In this document: piece after piece, positions 2,596 to 6,974 of the stretch
Numbering within the stretch: position 1 is the first letter of the stretch
Layout of the letters: each line of letters starts with the position of its first letter
Source of the DNA: a virus
IMG/VR virus record: IMGVR_UViG_3300048694_000995
Location: 1 to 35,892 of that record
Reading direction: 5' to 3' (one strand)
DNA length: 35,892 nucleotides
Made by a program: the position numbers and the translations under genes
Notes under the pieces: model-generated
Database searches by the model: none
What the model was told of the DNA's origin: nothing
The model's input: only the letters and a program-made list of their open reading frames with translations

Positions 2596-2793
2596 ATGAC
2601 CGAATCAATAAGATGGATTGCCGGTGTAATCATGGCAGGACTTGCGACGTTCGGATTCTATCACTACAAGAATGCAGATGTGACAAAGATGGATATCTGT
2701 CTCAAGGCACCTAACCTTGTCTATAAGGAAGGTGGATGTGTCCGCGAGAGCAAGTTAGAAATTGTCACTCCGGAGACACCAGTCAAGAAGTAA
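2596..2793 (+). CDS. Small membrane-anchored protein
   Basis: This 65-residue protein has a clear ribosome-binding site (ACGGAGAATAAC before the ATG). An N-terminal transmembrane helix or uncleaved signal (residues about 6-23, RWIAGVIMAGLATFGFYH) is followed by a short hydrophilic tail with two cysteines (C35 and C48) that could form a disulphide if the tail is periplasmic. The family is not recognised. It follows a 43-base gap containing CTAAATAA and a T-rich run, which may carry a promoter. Confidence 0.6.
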   Translation: MTESIRWIAGVIMAGLATFGFYHYKNADVTKMDICLKAPNLVYKEGGCVRESKLEIVTPETPVKK

Positions 2794-2809
2794 TCATTGG
2801 AACTTTGCT

Positions 2810-3076
2810 ATGTCACAATTGAAATTATACGTATTCGATCAAGGGTGGGCCGGTGCAGAGTTGTTTGTCACCTCAGACAAACAGAAAGCAATAGAAAAAC
2901 TGATCGATCCACAGATACAACATTATCGTGCGCTCGATCAGCTTCACAAACGTGATCATCCGGACCGCCATAATCCATGGATTGCTCAAATCAATTATCT
3001 TGAAACAAATAGACAGACAGTCCTACAGGAGTATGATATCACTGAAGGATTGTCTGTAACTACTACAGGAGAATGA
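2810..3076 (+). CDS. Hypothetical protein
   Basis: The ATG at 2810 gives 88 residues (MSQLKLYVFDQGWAGAELFV at the N-terminus). An upstream TTG at 2762 in the same frame would overlap the preceding gene and is rejected. The protein looks like a small alpha/beta domain: two strands, then a long helix with KAIEKLIDPQIQHYRALDQLHK, a His/Asp-rich turn (KRDHPDRHNPW) and a final helix. No catalytic motif is recognised. It is the last protein gene before the tmRNA, and its stop codon lies inside a late-promoter-like motif. Confidence 0.6.
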   Translation: MSQLKLYVFDQGWAGAELFVTSDKQKAIEKLIDPQIQHYRALDQLHKRDHPDRHNPWIAQINYLETNRQTVLQEYDITEGLSVTTTGE

Positions 3077-3082
3077 TAAATA
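3075..3082 (+). promoter_or_regulatory. Candidate T4-type late promoter for the tmRNA
   Basis: GATAAATA matches the NATAAATA form of the T4 late promoter (consensus TATAAATA). With T4 spacing, in which the octamer occupies about -13 to -6, transcription would start near 3088. That is exactly at the foot of the hairpin opening the tmRNA precursor. The window also encodes gp33, the coactivator such promoters use. ATAAATA is expected by chance several times per strand here, so position is the main support. Confidence 0.4.
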
Positions 3083-3108
3083 GAATTTACATTGGTTCGC
3101 CAATGTAA

Positions 3109-3170
3109 TGTATCGATGAAGCTATCAAATAACGAACTGGACGCGGGCGCAATACCCGCCGCCTCCACCA
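3109..3170 (+). ncRNA. tmRNA acceptor piece (mature 5' end approximate)
   Basis: This half carries the CCA end and the T arm. The T stem GCGGG/CCCGC is perfect. The seven-base loop is CGCAATA, keeping the C and A at the positions equivalent to C56 and A58 but lacking the usual TT at 54-55. The 3' CCA is encoded (3168-3170). The 5' boundary is set just after the TTCG hairpin, so that the GTATC strand that pairs with the coding piece is included; the real processing site is unknown. Confidence 0.8.
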
Positions 3171-3270
3171 AAAGTATACTGTGAGGATGCTAGTTGCATG
3201 GCTAACACGAACAAAGTGCAACCTACTGTATAATAGTGATCATAAAAACGGTAAGCAGTATACTTTTGAT
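3171..3270 (+). other. Excised spacer between tmRNA halves
   Basis: The 100 bases between the CCA end and the first G of the coding piece would be removed from the precursor. They begin AAAGTATACTG (3171-3181) and end with its exact complement CAGTATACTTT (3256-3266). The spacer thus forms an 11-bp stem, 12 bp if A3170 is included. This stem would continue the acceptor stem after a short TGAT asymmetry and hold both processing sites close together. The internal 74 bases show no obvious further pairing and no reading frame of note. Confidence 0.8.
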
Positions 3271-3504
3271 GGGGGCGAAATAGGATCGACAGGCGTATAG
3301 GAGAGAGTGGAGATACCGGGCGCGAGCTCCGTTAACGCAAGACAACAAACAAGTGCAAACGATAACGCACCTGTCGAGGTTCGCCTAGCGGCTTAACCTC
3401 ATGAGTTCGACACTGACTTGGAAACAGAATAGTGTCACAGCGTACTGGCTGTAACAGTACTAGAGGTTTAAGTCGGCTTTCCTCGATCAAACAAAAGCTG
3501 ACTT
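3271..3504 (+). ncRNA. tmRNA tag-coding piece (3' end approximate)
   Basis: It starts with the acceptor 5' strand and the D-loop-like segment. A small hairpin capped by a GCGA tetraloop (stem 3318-3321 with 3326-3329) precedes the tag frame. After the tag come the P5 helix GAGGTT/AACCTC (3376-3381 with 3395-3400), a stem GACACT/AGTGTC (3409-3414 with 3431-3436), and an H-type pseudoknot made of ACAGC/GCTGT (3437-3441 with 3448-3452) and GTACTG/CAGTAC (3442-3447 with 3455-3460). The final hairpin at 3470-3504 doubles as a terminator. The mature 3' end may lie before or inside it. Confidence 0.85.
3355..3396 (+). other. tmRNA proteolysis tag reading frame
   Basis: The resume codon GCA at 3355 follows an A-rich stretch (AACAAACAAGT). 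The frame reads A-N-D-N-A-P-V-E-V-R-L-A-A then TAA at 3394-3396. Both the AND start and the LAA end are classic for SsrA tags; the C-terminal LAA is what ClpXP reads. The stop codon lies at the closing strand of the P5 helix, as usual for tmRNA. With the alanine carried on the tmRNA itself, the added tag would be 14 residues. Confidence 0.93.
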
Positions 3505-3512
3505 TTCTTTTA
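3470..3512 (+). terminator. Intrinsic terminator after the tmRNA
   Basis: AAGTCGGCTTT (3470-3480) pairs with AAAGCTGACTT (3494-3504), 11 bp with one G-U. The loop is 13 bases and the hairpin is followed by a T-rich run (TTTTCTTTTA, 3503-3512). It closes the tmRNA transcript before the SpeD-like gene. Part of the hairpin might also be the last helix of the tmRNA. Confidence 0.75.
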
Positions 3513-3540
3513 TCTGCACGGAGGTACATGAGTTAAACAG

Positions 3541-3948
3541 TTGGCACATCTACAACACAAGCACATCATCGTTAGAGCCGATGTATTTAATCCTCCTAAC
3601 CCAGGAGATCACAAAAACCTAACTGAATGGTTTGAAGATCTTGTTAGTAGTATCAAAATGAAAATCCTGTCTGGCCCACATGTTGTTTATTGCAAGATGG
3701 TTGGCAACCAAGGATTCACTGGAGTTTGTGCTATTGAGACATCTCATATAGCATTGCATATTTGGGATGAAGAGTCTCCTGGACGACTTGAGCTCGATGT
3801 GTATACTTGTAGTGACCTTGATCAGTCCGTAATCTTCGATAAGCTACAGGCATTCAGTCCTGTTAACATTAAGTACATCGTCCTTGATAGACAGGACGGC
3901 CAGCAGATCATTGAACACGTGATCGAAAAACAATCATTGGCAGCCTGA
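3541..3948 (+). CDS. speD: S-adenosylmethionine decarboxylase-family protein (SpeD-like)
   Basis: SpeD is a pyruvoyl enzyme that cuts itself to make its cofactor and decarboxylates S-adenosylmethionine for spermidine synthesis. In this 135-residue protein, residues 65-77 (IETSHIALHIWDE) match the self-cleavage region (ESHxxxHxWPE), and LELDVYTC at 83-90 matches the segment with the catalytic cysteine. By alignment with the Thermotoga enzyme, the new pyruvoyl N-terminus would be S68, with H73 and C90 as catalytic residues. The residue before S68 is Thr rather than the usual Glu (E66-T67-S68), and two residues are inserted before the Cys segment. The start is a TTG at 3541, because a stop closes the frame at 3529; a Shine-Dalgarno (CGGAGG, 3519-3524) lies 16 bases upstream. 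SpeD-like genes occur as auxiliary metabolic genes in T4-like phages; some homologues act on ornithine or arginine, so the substrate is open. Confidence 0.82.
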   Translation: MAHLQHKHIIVRADVFNPPNPGDHKNLTEWFEDLVSSIKMKILSGPHVVYCKMVGNQGFTGVCAIETSHIALHIWDEESPGRLELDVYTCSDLDQSVIFDKLQAFSPVNIKYIVLDRQDGQQIIEHVIEKQSLAA

Positions 3949-3954
3949 ACACCG

Positions 3955-4002
3955 TTGACATCATCATTCAATTGTAGTATTGTTTGATGATGTCAATTTT
4001 TT
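3955..4002 (+). terminator. Intrinsic terminator after speD
   Basis: TTGACATCATCA (3955-3966) and TGATGATGTCAA (3985-3996) form a perfect 12-bp stem with an 18-base loop, followed directly by six Ts. It separates the tmRNA-speD unit from the gp33-gp32 block. Confidence 0.9.
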
Positions 4003-4014
4003 ATGAGGATAGCT

Positions 4015-4293
4015 ATGCGAGAGCGAATTATAGATTTTATTGGTACGGTAGTAGCAGCTACGTTGGTTGGTATATGTATTGTGTTGGTTGGAGTAGGACT
4101 GCAACGATTGTACTATGGTCCGCCCCCAGCCCCGATTCAAACTTCAGCTGCAATAACAGTCCCCAACGACGGTTGGCGGATTAAGCTGTACTACAAAAGC
4201 CCCGAAGGAATTGAAAAGGAGCTTGATGCATACATTGCTATTCCCGGTTATATTTTCAAGATTGAATCTGTGACAGCGAAGGATGCAAAGTAA
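4015..4293 (+). CDS. Small single-pass membrane protein
   Basis: I choose the ATG at 4015 because GAGG lies six bases upstream. The in-frame ATG at 4003 sits on the terminator's T-run and its own codons form the ribosome-binding site. The product is 92 residues with a transmembrane helix at about residues 8-32 (FIGTVVAATLVGICIVLVGV). A Pro-rich hinge (YYGPPPAPIQTS) and a C-terminal domain of about 50 residues with beta character (WRIKLYYKSPEGIEKEL) follow. The family is not recognised. Its stop abuts the GTG start of gp33. Confidence 0.65.
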   Translation: MRERIIDFIGTVVAATLVGICIVLVGVGLQRLYYGPPPAPIQTSAAITVPNDGWRIKLYYKSPEGIEKELDAYIAIPGYIFKIESVTAKDAK

Positions 4294-4539
4294 GTGTCGG
4301 AAGTAATCTACGTGGAAAAACTATTGAACATCTCAGCTGAAATTGAACAGCTGGTCGAGAAGCATCAGATTGATTACATCGACGCATGCATGCTATATTG
4401 CGAACGACATAACTTAGACGTTGAACAGTTCGCAATGCTAATCCGCAACAACCAGAACATAAAGTCCAAGCTGCAGGTAGAAGCGGAGCAACTAAACTTC
4501 CTAAAAAAGCAACCTCGTATAGAATTTGACGGAGAGTGA
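4294..4539 (+). CDS. 33: Late-transcription coactivator gp33
   Basis: In T4, gp33 bridges host RNA polymerase, the gp55 sigma factor and the gp45 sliding clamp to activate late promoters. This 81-residue protein aligns by eye with the core of T4 gp33. IEQLVEKHQIDYIDACMLY (residues 17-35) matches the helix with the spaced Tyr and Ala. Residues 41-50 match the segment containing Gln-Phe-Ala and a following Ile. IKSKLQVEAEQLNFL (56-70) matches T4's IxxKIQxEAxxxNLL. The start is GTG right after the previous TAA, with AAGGA ten bases upstream. The gene order 33-59-32 is also that of T4. T4 gp33 ends in a hydrophobic clamp-binding tail; this one ends PRIEFDGE, so the clamp contact, if any, must differ. 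Confidence 0.8.
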   Translation: MSEVIYVEKLLNISAEIEQLVEKHQIDYIDACMLYCERHNLDVEQFAMLIRNNQNIKSKLQVEAEQLNFLKKQPRIEFDGE

Positions 4540-4540
4540 T

Positions 4541-5410
4541 ATGGAAAATTTTGTCTATGACTCTGGTATTCGAAGTGAAACGCCGCCTCCTCTGATATCA
4601 CGAAAGCAAGATTTGATCATCAAAGCAAAACAGCTGAATGATGATCATTACTGGGAATATATGCGAGAAGTATTTGCTGACGACTTTGAGAATCTTGATC
4701 GCTCTCGTTTTCGCGTATGGCAATCTGTCCTGTCAGTCCCGCTGATGGTTCGTTCGCGATTCCAGTATTACTTTGCAACTGCACTGTCTGCGGCTGTAAG
4801 AGATCCAATCTATGCACAGGCACTTGAGCAGCGAATGATTGGAATGACGCTGAACGATTTCGAGCTGCTATTCCGTGTTGTTGATGACTTCCCAACAACT
4901 GCTAATCGTATCCAGAACCTATCGCATCTCCTCCTTGGAGAGATATACGTAGAAAAACTCAGTCAAATGGACTCAATCGTTGAGCTTGGTGGTGGCGTCG
5001 GCGATATGGCAGACATTATTCATACGCTAGGGTTCAAAGGCCGCTATCAACTATATGATTTCCCAGAGCTTGGTGCAATTCAGAAATGGCACCATAGACA
5101 ACTAGGAATTGCAGACAAAATAGAGTACATCAGCGATTATACAAAGCTAGAGCCCGCAGATCTTGTTATTGCAACTTGGTCTTTAACTGAAATGCCAATC
5201 GACCTTCGTACAAAGATCGAAGAGCAACTGAAACACTCTAAACGATGGCTTGTAGCATACTCGAATAAGATCTTTGGTATGGACAATGCTAGCTACATGA
5301 AACAGTTTGCTGAGAAATTAACGACTGCTGGTAGCAACGTGACATTTATCGACGTTCCATTTATGCCCTGGGACGGTGGTACTCGTTATATGTTTGCAAA
5401 ACCTCAATGA
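4541..5410 (+). CDS. SAM-dependent methyltransferase-like protein
   Basis: The ATG at 4541, with GGAG six bases upstream, gives 289 residues. A helical N-terminal domain (about 1-140) is followed by a Rossmann-type methyltransferase core. Motif I is IVELGGGVGDMA (146-157). The acidic end of strand beta2 is YQLYDFPEL (169-177), where Asp would bind the SAM ribose. ADLVIATWSLTEMP (206-219) is the motif IV region. This layout (Glu-Leu-Gly-Gly-Gly-x-Gly-Asp plus a D-F-P-E loop) resembles putative sugar O-methyltransferases rather than DNA base methyltransferases, and no DPPY-type motif is present. It lies between gp33 and gp59, overlapping gp59 by 4 nt, so it is expressed with replication genes. 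The substrate is unknown. Confidence 0.75.
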   Translation: MENFVYDSGIRSETPPPLISRKQDLIIKAKQLNDDHYWEYMREVFADDFENLDRSRFRVWQSVLSVPLMVRSRFQYYFATALSAAVRDPIYAQALEQRMIGMTLNDFELLFRVVDDFPTTANRIQNLSHLLLGEIYVEKLSQMDSIVELGGGVGDMADIIHTLGFKGRYQLYDFPELGAIQKWHHRQLGIADKIEYISDYTKLEPADLVIATWSLTEMPIDLRTKIEEQLKHSKRWLVAYSNKIFGMDNASYMKQFAEKLTTAGSNVTFIDVPFMPWDGGTRYMFAKPQ

Positions 5411-5997
5411 CAGCATTTGAAGCTTATTGTTTATACATCGGCCTCAAGAATCACTTCACTCAAACAACATACGACTATTTCAAGTACAACGGAAAGAGTA
5501 CTGCATCAATCGAATCGTTCAACAAACGGATCGACAAGTACTTCTTTGTCAAACTCGCCAAGCACAAGGACCCGAAAGGGTTCTTGATTGCGAATTTGAT
5601 TGCCGATCAGTCATTCTGGGTAGGTCAGCTAACACACAATCAACAGACAAACGAGATCTATAAGCAATGGCTGAAACGAAAGCAGTCGTTGCAATATCAA
5701 TTCAAGGAAGACCTCAAAAAGATACCTCCTAACAAATTCCAACAGCACTTCTTGGTACAAAACAATCATCCGAAAGTGATCGTTCTTTTTCTACAGAACC
5801 AAATATCACTTGAATCTTTGTGCATTATGATTGATAGTATTCAATGTTACAGTTATCTCAACAAACAACTGAACGATGACGTCGTCTGGGATTATGTTGG
5901 TAAGCTGATACGAAAGTACACACCATTCATTGAGTATGACAAGAAACACTATCGTAAACTGATCAAGGAATATGTCAATTCAACGAATACTAAATAG
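5407..5997 (+). CDS. 59: DNA helicase loader gp59
   Basis: gp59 loads the replicative helicase gp41 onto gp32-coated forked DNA. This 196-residue protein is close to T4 gp59 in length (217). Clear matches are RIDKYFFVKLAKHKDPKGF (residues 41-59; T4 has RRDKYFFQKLSEKYKLKEL), LIANLIADQSFWVGQL (60-75; T4 ISNLVANQDAWIGDI), and FKEDLKKI then LESLCIMIDS, matching T4's FEEDIRNI and FETFILLDS. It starts by ATGA overlap with the methyltransferase gene. It lies directly upstream of gp32, its binding partner. Confidence 0.88.
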   Translation: MTAFEAYCLYIGLKNHFTQTTYDYFKYNGKSTASIESFNKRIDKYFFVKLAKHKDPKGFLIANLIADQSFWVGQLTHNQQTNEIYKQWLKRKQSLQYQFKEDLKKIPPNKFQQHFLVQNNHPKVIVLFLQNQISLESLCIMIDSIQCYSYLNKQLNDDVVWDYVGKLIRKYTPFIEYDKKHYRKLIKEYVNSTNTK

Positions 5998-6018
5998 TAT
6001 CATACACTATGATATAAT
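5988..6018 (+). promoter_or_regulatory. Extended -10 promoter with upstream dyad, for gp32
   Basis: TGATATAAT (6010-6018) is a perfect extended -10 element (TGnTATAAT), 33 bases before the gp32 ATG. No good -35 hexamer is visible, which extended -10 promoters can do without. Immediately upstream, overlapping the gp59 stop, is a dyad ATACTA-AA-TAGTAT (5986-5999). It also contains CTAAATA. The dyad may be an operator or part of a middle/late element. This would give gp32 its own strong transcript. Confidence 0.55.
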
Positions 6019-6050
6019 CAATACACTCTAATACAAGGAATACAACAGAT

Positions 6051-6974
6051 ATGTCAAATACATCTTTTAGTGCACTGAAGAAGAACCGTACATCTAATAT
6101 CTCACGTCTTGCTGCAGAGCTTGACAAGATGAACACAAAGAAGCCACAAGGCGATTCTGATGATGGTCGATTCTGGCAGCCAACAGCAGACAAAGCTGGC
6201 AACGGCAGTGCAATAATCAGATTCCTTCCTGCGCCCAAAGGTGAAGACCTCCCATATGCTCGTTATTGGTATCACGGATTTCAGGGTCCGACTGGTAGCT
6301 ATTACATCGAGAACTGTCTAACGACTATCGGTGGAAAGTGTCCGGCTTGTGATGACAACAATCGACTGTGGAACTCGGGAGACGAAAAAGACAAGAAAAC
6401 TGTCTCGCAGAGAAAGAGACGACTGACATTTGTTTCTAACATTCAGGTGATCAAGGATCCTGCTAATCCGGAAAACGATGGCAAGGTATTCTTGTTCAAG
6501 TATGGCAAGAAGATCTTTGACAAGATCAGCGATACAATCGTTCCGCCTGAGGATGAACTTGATCCTACTGAACCAGTTGATGTATTCGACTTCTGGGAAG
6601 GTGCACCGTTCAAGCTTCGTTTCCGTAAGGTAGAGGGATATCGTAATTACGAGAAGAGTGAATTTGGTGATCCATGCCCGATTGCCGATAGTGATGAAGA
6701 GATCGAAGCTATCTGGAATCAGCAGCATTCGCTTACTGAGTTCACCGATCCTTCGAAGTTCAAATCTCGTGATGTTCTTCTAGCAAACCTTGCTAAAGCT
6801 CTTGGTACTGGTGACGTGTCAGAACATGCTGATGATGTTCAGTTACCAGAGTCTCAGCCAGAGGTTCAGTCTAAGCCTGCGAAGAAAGCACCGGCGAAGA
6901 AGGCGCCTGCTGCTAGCAAGGAGGATGATGATCTCGAGTTTGATGACATCTTCAAGAAGCTTAATGAGGAATAA
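6051..6974 (+). CDS. 32: Single-stranded DNA-binding protein gp32
   Basis: gp32 coats single-stranded DNA in replication, recombination and repair. This 307-residue protein has the T4 layout. A basic N-terminal region (about 1-25) for cooperative binding is followed by the core starting at AGNGSAIIRFLPAP (T4: AGNGQAVIRFLPS). The zinc site is H75, C89, C97, C100 (YHGF, ENC, CPAC), equivalent to T4 H64, C77, C87, C90. IQVIKDPANPENDGKVFLF matches T4's LVVKDPAAPENEGKVFKY. The C-terminus has a Lys/Ala-rich linker (about 275-290) and an acidic tail (DDDLEFDDIF), the arm that contacts gp59 and polymerase in T4. It has its own extended -10 promoter and ends at a shared terminator. Confidence 0.96.
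   Translation: MSNTSFSALKKNRTSNISRLAAELDKMNTKKPQGDSDDGRFWQPTADKAGNGSAIIRFLPAPKGEDLPYARYWYHGFQGPTGSYYIENCLTTIGGKCPACDDNNRLWNSGDEKDKKTVSQRKRRLTFVSNIQVIKDPANPENDGKVFLFKYGKKIFDKISDTIVPPEDELDPTEPVDVFDFWEGAPFKLRFRKVEGYRNYEKSEFGDPCPIADSDEEIEAIWNQQHSLTEFTDPSKFKSRDVLLANLAKALGTGDVSEHADDVQLPESQPEVQSKPAKKAPAKKAPAASKEDDDLEFDDIFKKLNEE

Follow-up and report, generated by a model that had tools for sequence, protein, structure and literature searches.

A phage-borne permuted tmRNA gene upstream of gp33, gp59, and gp32 in T4-like phages

The window examined here, by which we mean the whole stretch of viral DNA that was analyzed (35,892 nucleotides), carries at 3087-3504 a locus that an earlier note had read as a permuted two-piece tmRNA gene of the alphaproteobacterial type, with the suggestion that it be checked by using Infernal with the Rfam alpha_tmRNA model. 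That model (RF01849) matches at 3051-3439 with 109.4 bits (E 3.4e-29, cut-off 50), and the tmRNA_permuted model (RF04321) matches at 3110-3396 with 110.9 bits (cut-off 47). These were the two above-cut-off matches in an Rfam search of the whole window, both at the tmRNA locus; an ARAGORN run did not call the gene. The permuted order can be read directly from the sequence, wherein the T arm, the acceptor strand, and ACCA are followed by a 100-nt spacer and then by the tag half. The features of the locus and of the genes downstream are as follows.

3075..3082, + strand: GATAAATA, putative late-promoter element identical at 7/8 positions to the T4 late-promoter octamer TATAAATA, which relatives have equivalently placed
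3087..3108, + strand: 5′ hairpin UUACAUUGG-UUCG-CCAAUGUAA, 5′ of the acceptor piece (fold -9.5 kcal/mol, z -4.7; matches the RF01849 5′ hairpin)
3110..3170, + strand: acceptor piece (covariance model, pairing, and covariation)
3132-3139, + strand: interior strand of the acceptor piece, pairing with 3290-3296
3143-3159, + strand: T arm GCGGG-CGCAAUA-CCCGC (sequence)
3160-3166, + strand: acceptor 3′ strand CGCCTCC (RNA CGCCUCC; sequence)
3167-3170, + strand: ACCA (sequence)
3171..3270, + strand: spacer of 100 nt, predicted to be removed from the precursor; its ends pair in a 12-bp helix, AAAGUAUACUGU/GCAGUAUACUUU, stacked on the acceptor stem
3271..3296, + strand: start of the coding piece (covariance model, pairing, and covariation)
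3271-3277, + strand: acceptor 5′ strand GGGGGCG (sequence)
within 3271..3296, + strand: D-like segment GAAAUAGGAUCGAC (sequence)
3290-3296, + strand: interior strand of the coding piece, pairing with 3132-3139
3355..3396, + strand: tag frame (sequence), with resume codon GCA at 3355, ANDNAPVEVRLAA at 3355-3393, and stop codon TAA at 3394-3396
3409..3436, + strand: post-tag hairpin GACACU/AGUGUC with conserved UUGGAAACAGAA loop; pairs 3410-3415/3430-3435 covary in phage homologues
3438..3460, + strand: candidate H-type pseudoknot CAGC-GUACUG-GCUG-UAA-CAGUAC (sequence reading)
3470..3511, + strand: rho-independent terminator AAGUCGGCUUU...AAAGCUGACUU followed by UUCUUUU (fold -11.8 kcal/mol, z -3.9)
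4294-4539, + strand: gp33 (PHROGs and Pfam matches)
4526-5410, + strand: unknown ORF between gp33 and gp59
5407-5997, + strand: gp59 (PHROGs and Pfam matches)
6051-6974, + strand: gp32 (PHROGs and Pfam matches)

The previously noted span runs from the 5′ UUCG hairpin through the end of the terminator stem. Its two halves pair across the permutation at 7/7 acceptor positions, the T arm pairs at 5/5 positions, and the interior helix is present, all as had been described, and the G3-U70 alanine identity pair corresponds to 3273-3164. The spacer helix folds together with the acceptor stem (z -4.6). We regard the locus as almost certainly a real permuted tmRNA gene. Note that the terminator is absent from the list of a consensus scanner, which permits loops of 3-8 only. 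The candidate pseudoknot sits between the coding piece and the terminator, and several of the relatives that were read appear to be shorter there.

The virus is a T4-like phage, as had been proposed earlier. Proteins of the window match T4 gp33, gp59, and gp32 by name and gp6 through S-PM2 and other isolates, and further families comprise baseplate wedge and hub, tail-tube cap, head-closure, and DNA-end-protector proteins. The gp33, gp59, and gp32 genes stand in T4 order. The best isolate relatives (DLP_6, Sinorhizobium phages, HTVC008M, and Melnitz) are just 35-55% identical, a DNA search of the tmRNA region against GenBank phages gave no match, and the sole match in a 25-kb near search was 76 bp of gp32. 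A glutamine riboswitch (RF01739) was not matched in 2700-4100 at E values up to 5. Located 3′ of the tmRNA gene is a SpeD-like (S-adenosylmethionine decarboxylase) gene at 3520-3948, where ATGAGTTAA, which would halt translation immediately, comes after a good ribosome site (GGAGGT) and the long frame does not begin until TTG 3541; a frameshift or sequencing error is possible.

By searching viral contigs with a pattern for the alpha tmRNA D segment, we recovered at least 119 stretches. Among the matches listed (119), 117 have an upstream acceptor half that pairs with the tag half at 6/7 positions or more, although this test takes the best-pairing upstream site and is therefore partly circular. 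For covariation analysis, 71 non-redundant phage genes were rearranged into the unpermuted order. The interior helix formed by 3132-3139 and 3290-3296, which played no part in selecting these 71 homologues, exhibits as many as six kinds of pair at a position, and one to six sequences are unpaired there. Acceptor and T-arm pairs also covary across this set, and G3-U70 is unchanged in 71/71 genes. The pairs of the post-tag hairpin are unpaired in 10-30% of the aligned sequences. Among viral spacers of 25 nt or longer, 75% have ends joined by a helix of at least 8 bp, versus 2% of shuffles, and this helix is retained in relatives while its sequence changes. One contig (G022) yields two tmRNA_permuted matches 200 bases apart (L317 and L318), one of them weak, which could represent a 359-nt spacer or a partial duplication.

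The window gene encodes the tag (A)ANDNAPVEVRLAA, which has an LAA end. A search of viral contigs for this exact tag pattern found none. Among 94 parsed viral tags, 89 have a terminal AA preceded by L, I, V, Q, or A, and 88 begin with ANDN. Two parsed tags ending in NCK or CKR (L058 and L075) proved to be parsing errors, since the real tags lie downstream. Four viral contigs (L063, L098, L114, and L085) have unusually long tags of about 29 and 31 residues (ANDNALSNVTFVDFSAPVTAVNEDFALAA; ANDNVAQPKFMKKRNTFARKVGFTKGMALAA) in which the ALAA end is kept. The ANDN start and LAA-type end of tags are used by host adaptors and ClpXP. The 72 distinct phage tags, none of them in common with the bacterial sample, might be taken to mean that a phage-specific tag diverts tagged proteins from their usual course or flags host proteins so that their amino acids are recycled, as has been suggested for Melnitz (PMC9004378). 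However, the start and end used by the host machinery are kept, and the middle part of bacterial tags is likewise variable. We therefore consider such retargeting unlikely, and prefer a tag that would act as a normal degron.

At least 117 other viral contigs carry an alpha-type tmRNA. When contigs were found through gp59 or gp32 rather than through tmRNA, a permuted tmRNA scored above cut-off in 18/37 and 19/28 of them, and in 30 of 37 contigs found in this manner the tmRNA is encoded no more than 7 kb upstream of gp59 or gp32 and in the same orientation, whereas the other 7/37 do not keep this place. In a second set, chosen by the tmRNA pattern alone, every placeable contig among the matches listed (47/47, the denominator being contigs with a parsed tmRNA and a detectable gp33, gp59, or gp32) has gp33, gp59, or gp32 downstream on the same strand, and the start of gp33 is mostly 0.3 to 2.2 kb from the tmRNA. 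The window shares this synteny, with gp33, gp59, and gp32 at 4294..6974 (+ strand) as the conserved downstream neighbors. Because the contigs are related by descent, some being almost identical, these counts do not represent independent events. What is new here is that the place of the tmRNA beside core T4 genes is conserved in many phages, and thus tmRNA-based ribosome rescue would be widespread among T4-like phages, as a cargo with a conserved position, and not an oddity.

HTVC008M, AG-345-P14, and DLP_6 also carry a permuted tmRNA, and those of HTVC008M and DLP_6 are unannotated in their records. The tmRNAs of HTVC008M and Melnitz are of the alpha type, that of DLP_6 fits the beta-type model, and that of the single-cell virus AG-345-P14 fits the cyanobacterial-type model. 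The beta-type gene of Stenotrophomonas phage DLP_6 (KU682439.2, 102838-103059; L286) lies beside a large tRNA array. Stenotrophomonas, the host of DLP_6, has a one-piece tmRNA of its own.

We considered whether the gene might be a recently captured host tmRNA gene, or a remnant left by imprecise excision or by use of an attachment site, with no selection in the phage. Indeed, tmRNA genes are common integration sites (PMC9004378), and the type of this tmRNA fits Alphaproteobacteria. However, the gene is complete with all pairs present, its place is fixed in T4-like genomes, and it scores 109 bits with RF01849 versus 143-313 bits for main chromosomal copies over the cut-off. A quick tree was built from 121 phage and 64 alphaproteobacterial tmRNA genes (about 205 columns); in it, phage genes fall on one side of a single, weakly supported branch (support 76), such that the split between phages and bacteria needs one change versus about 53 in shuffles. 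An earlier, narrower sample gave the same split with support 85; because the first bacterial sample was rich in Rhizobiales, 35 alphaproteobacterial genes of low score were added for the repeat tree, and AT-rich hosts are still thinly covered. The window gene falls near the junction between phages and bacteria, together with L006 and L029, and the tree gives neither the direction nor the number of transfers. The one-branch separation and the conserved genome place favor a tmRNA long resident in phages over one recently captured, which we judge very improbable; we likewise reject the remnant or attachment-site reading on the strength of covariation and synteny. The earlier proposal that the phage took its gene from an alphaproteobacterial-type host thus stands with regard to type but not as a simple capture. 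One alphaproteobacterial genome has, besides its normal copy, a second, divergent tmRNA (L477, G172:C5:288509-288849; 72.8 bits; tag ANDNSPVAMAA) that may be phage-derived.

The octamer TATAAATA has its first base 30-60 bases upstream of the T arm in 74/106 viral versus 0/95 bacterial genes, and a host -35 box (TTGAC) stands ahead of it at host spacing in 47/106 versus 0/95. Upstream DNA is 36% GC in the viral set versus 51% in the bacterial set. Nevertheless, AT-richness is unlikely to be the whole explanation, because Markov shuffles give 9.8 ATAAATA occurrences against the 78 observed upstream of viral genes, almost all of which fall in a 30-base interval, and 15 AT-rich bacterial genes have no octamer in the promoter slot. 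Of the 35 genes in the wider bacterial sample, two carry TATAAATA within 100 bases, but its positions (-73 and -95) do not fall in the phage slot. We believe that a predicted promoter joining bacterial and late-phage signals, present in many relatives, is also new here.

In the window, GATAAATA lies further upstream than the octamer of relatives because the 5′ hairpin lies between, and it would put the start site at about this hairpin. There is no good -35 box at the right spacing upstream of the window tmRNA, and judged by these motifs the window's own promoter is weaker than those of its relatives. ATAAATA is not enriched across the window (9 observed versus 8.25 expected), and [AC]TAAATA occurs six times in its non-coding DNA versus 1.5 expected. 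We see an even chance that this copy is expressed late.

The gene very probably acts in trans-translation, and we are similarly confident that it is a complete, working permuted ssrA of an old phage-borne lineage, supplementing trans-translation by the host. The sequences themselves establish the gene structure, the tag, the covariation, the synteny, and the promoter motif of relatives; processing, charging, timing, and function are predicted from these features. A single precursor would end at the terminator, and the spacer hairpin would be excised by host RNase P and host 3′-end nucleases, to yield separate acceptor and coding RNAs that would stay joined through the acceptor stem and the interior helix. 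Host AlaRS would charge the RNA through G3-U70, host SmpB would deliver it, and the tag, a normal ClpXP-type degron, would be added to chains on stalled ribosomes. The claim that host SmpB and AlaRS are needed is in part borne out, since G3-U70 is present for AlaRS and no SmpB was found in the 35.9-kb fragment, a result that holds for the fragment only. That the RNA is instead a decoy tying up SmpB or AlaRS to stop host rescue, as has been proposed for the tag-less tmRNA of mycobacteriophage DS6A, whose tRNA-like-domain-only form inhibits tmRNA (PMC4131195; PMC11915505), is very improbable, because the LAA-ended tag is complete, G3-U70 and the helices are kept, and the frame with its resume codon, degron end, and stop is preserved in the window and nearly all relatives.

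Working trans-translation by a lineage kept upstream of gp33-gp59-gp32 would in many relatives draw on the host -35 box and the T4 late octamer for tmRNA made both early and late; the combined promoter predicts that phage tmRNA appears early in infection and is still high late. Rescue could then continue while host DNA and RNA are destroyed, and the likely gain would be that ribosomes are recycled after message cleavage and loss of the host gene. For the full proposal, in which an ancient permuted-tmRNA lineage of the phages' own heads the gp33-gp59-gp32 operon, often with a promoter for host sigma and gp55, and trans-translation is run by the phage throughout infection, we find belief and doubt equally balanced. 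The question of why phages carry tmRNA can thereby be put to the test in pairs that grow in culture, among them those of HTVC008M and Melnitz.

The earlier note knew of no description of a permuted tmRNA in a T4-like phage, but there is a precedent: a two-piece ssrA upstream of the late-transcription coactivator has been published for the T4-like phage Melnitz (Buchholz et al., PMC9004378), placed after an early promoter, in a study that reports ssrA in 17/47 related contigs and 53 two-piece calls among phage tmRNAs. The tmRNA database holds 79 phage sequences of all forms (PMC11915505). Like the window, Melnitz (MZ577097) has a permuted alpha-type gene upstream of gp33-gp59, and its tag, ANDNYVPVDYALAA, is similar in style. 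In contrast, the Melnitz promoter is TTGACA-N17-TATAAATA and the window has only GATAAATA; the same tool finds a glutamine riboswitch after the Melnitz gene but none in 2700-4100 of the window, such an adjacent riboswitch being the mark of the riboswitch-regulated tmRNAs of Melnitz, Mosig, and AG-345-P14; and the window, unlike Melnitz, has the 5′ hairpin and, before gp33, the SpeD-like gene and another ORF. Pelagibacter phage HTVC008M also resembles the window, with an alpha-type tmRNA at 145161-145370 upstream of gp33 at 146004, although gp6 and gp32 are only 35% and 49% identical to those of the window. The tmRNAs of mycobacteriophages Bxz1 and Wildcat and of Bacillus phage G are of the one-piece form. 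These tmRNAs (PMC4131195) are phage-borne like that of the window but belong to different phage groups. Alphaproteobacterial chromosomal tmRNA (RF01849; for example, Caulobacter) shares with the window gene the permuted order, the 5′ hairpin, G3-U70, GAAAUAGGAUCGAC, and the style of tag, and differs in that its main copies score 143-313 bits and that the phage octamer occupies the promoter slot in 0/95 sampled genes.
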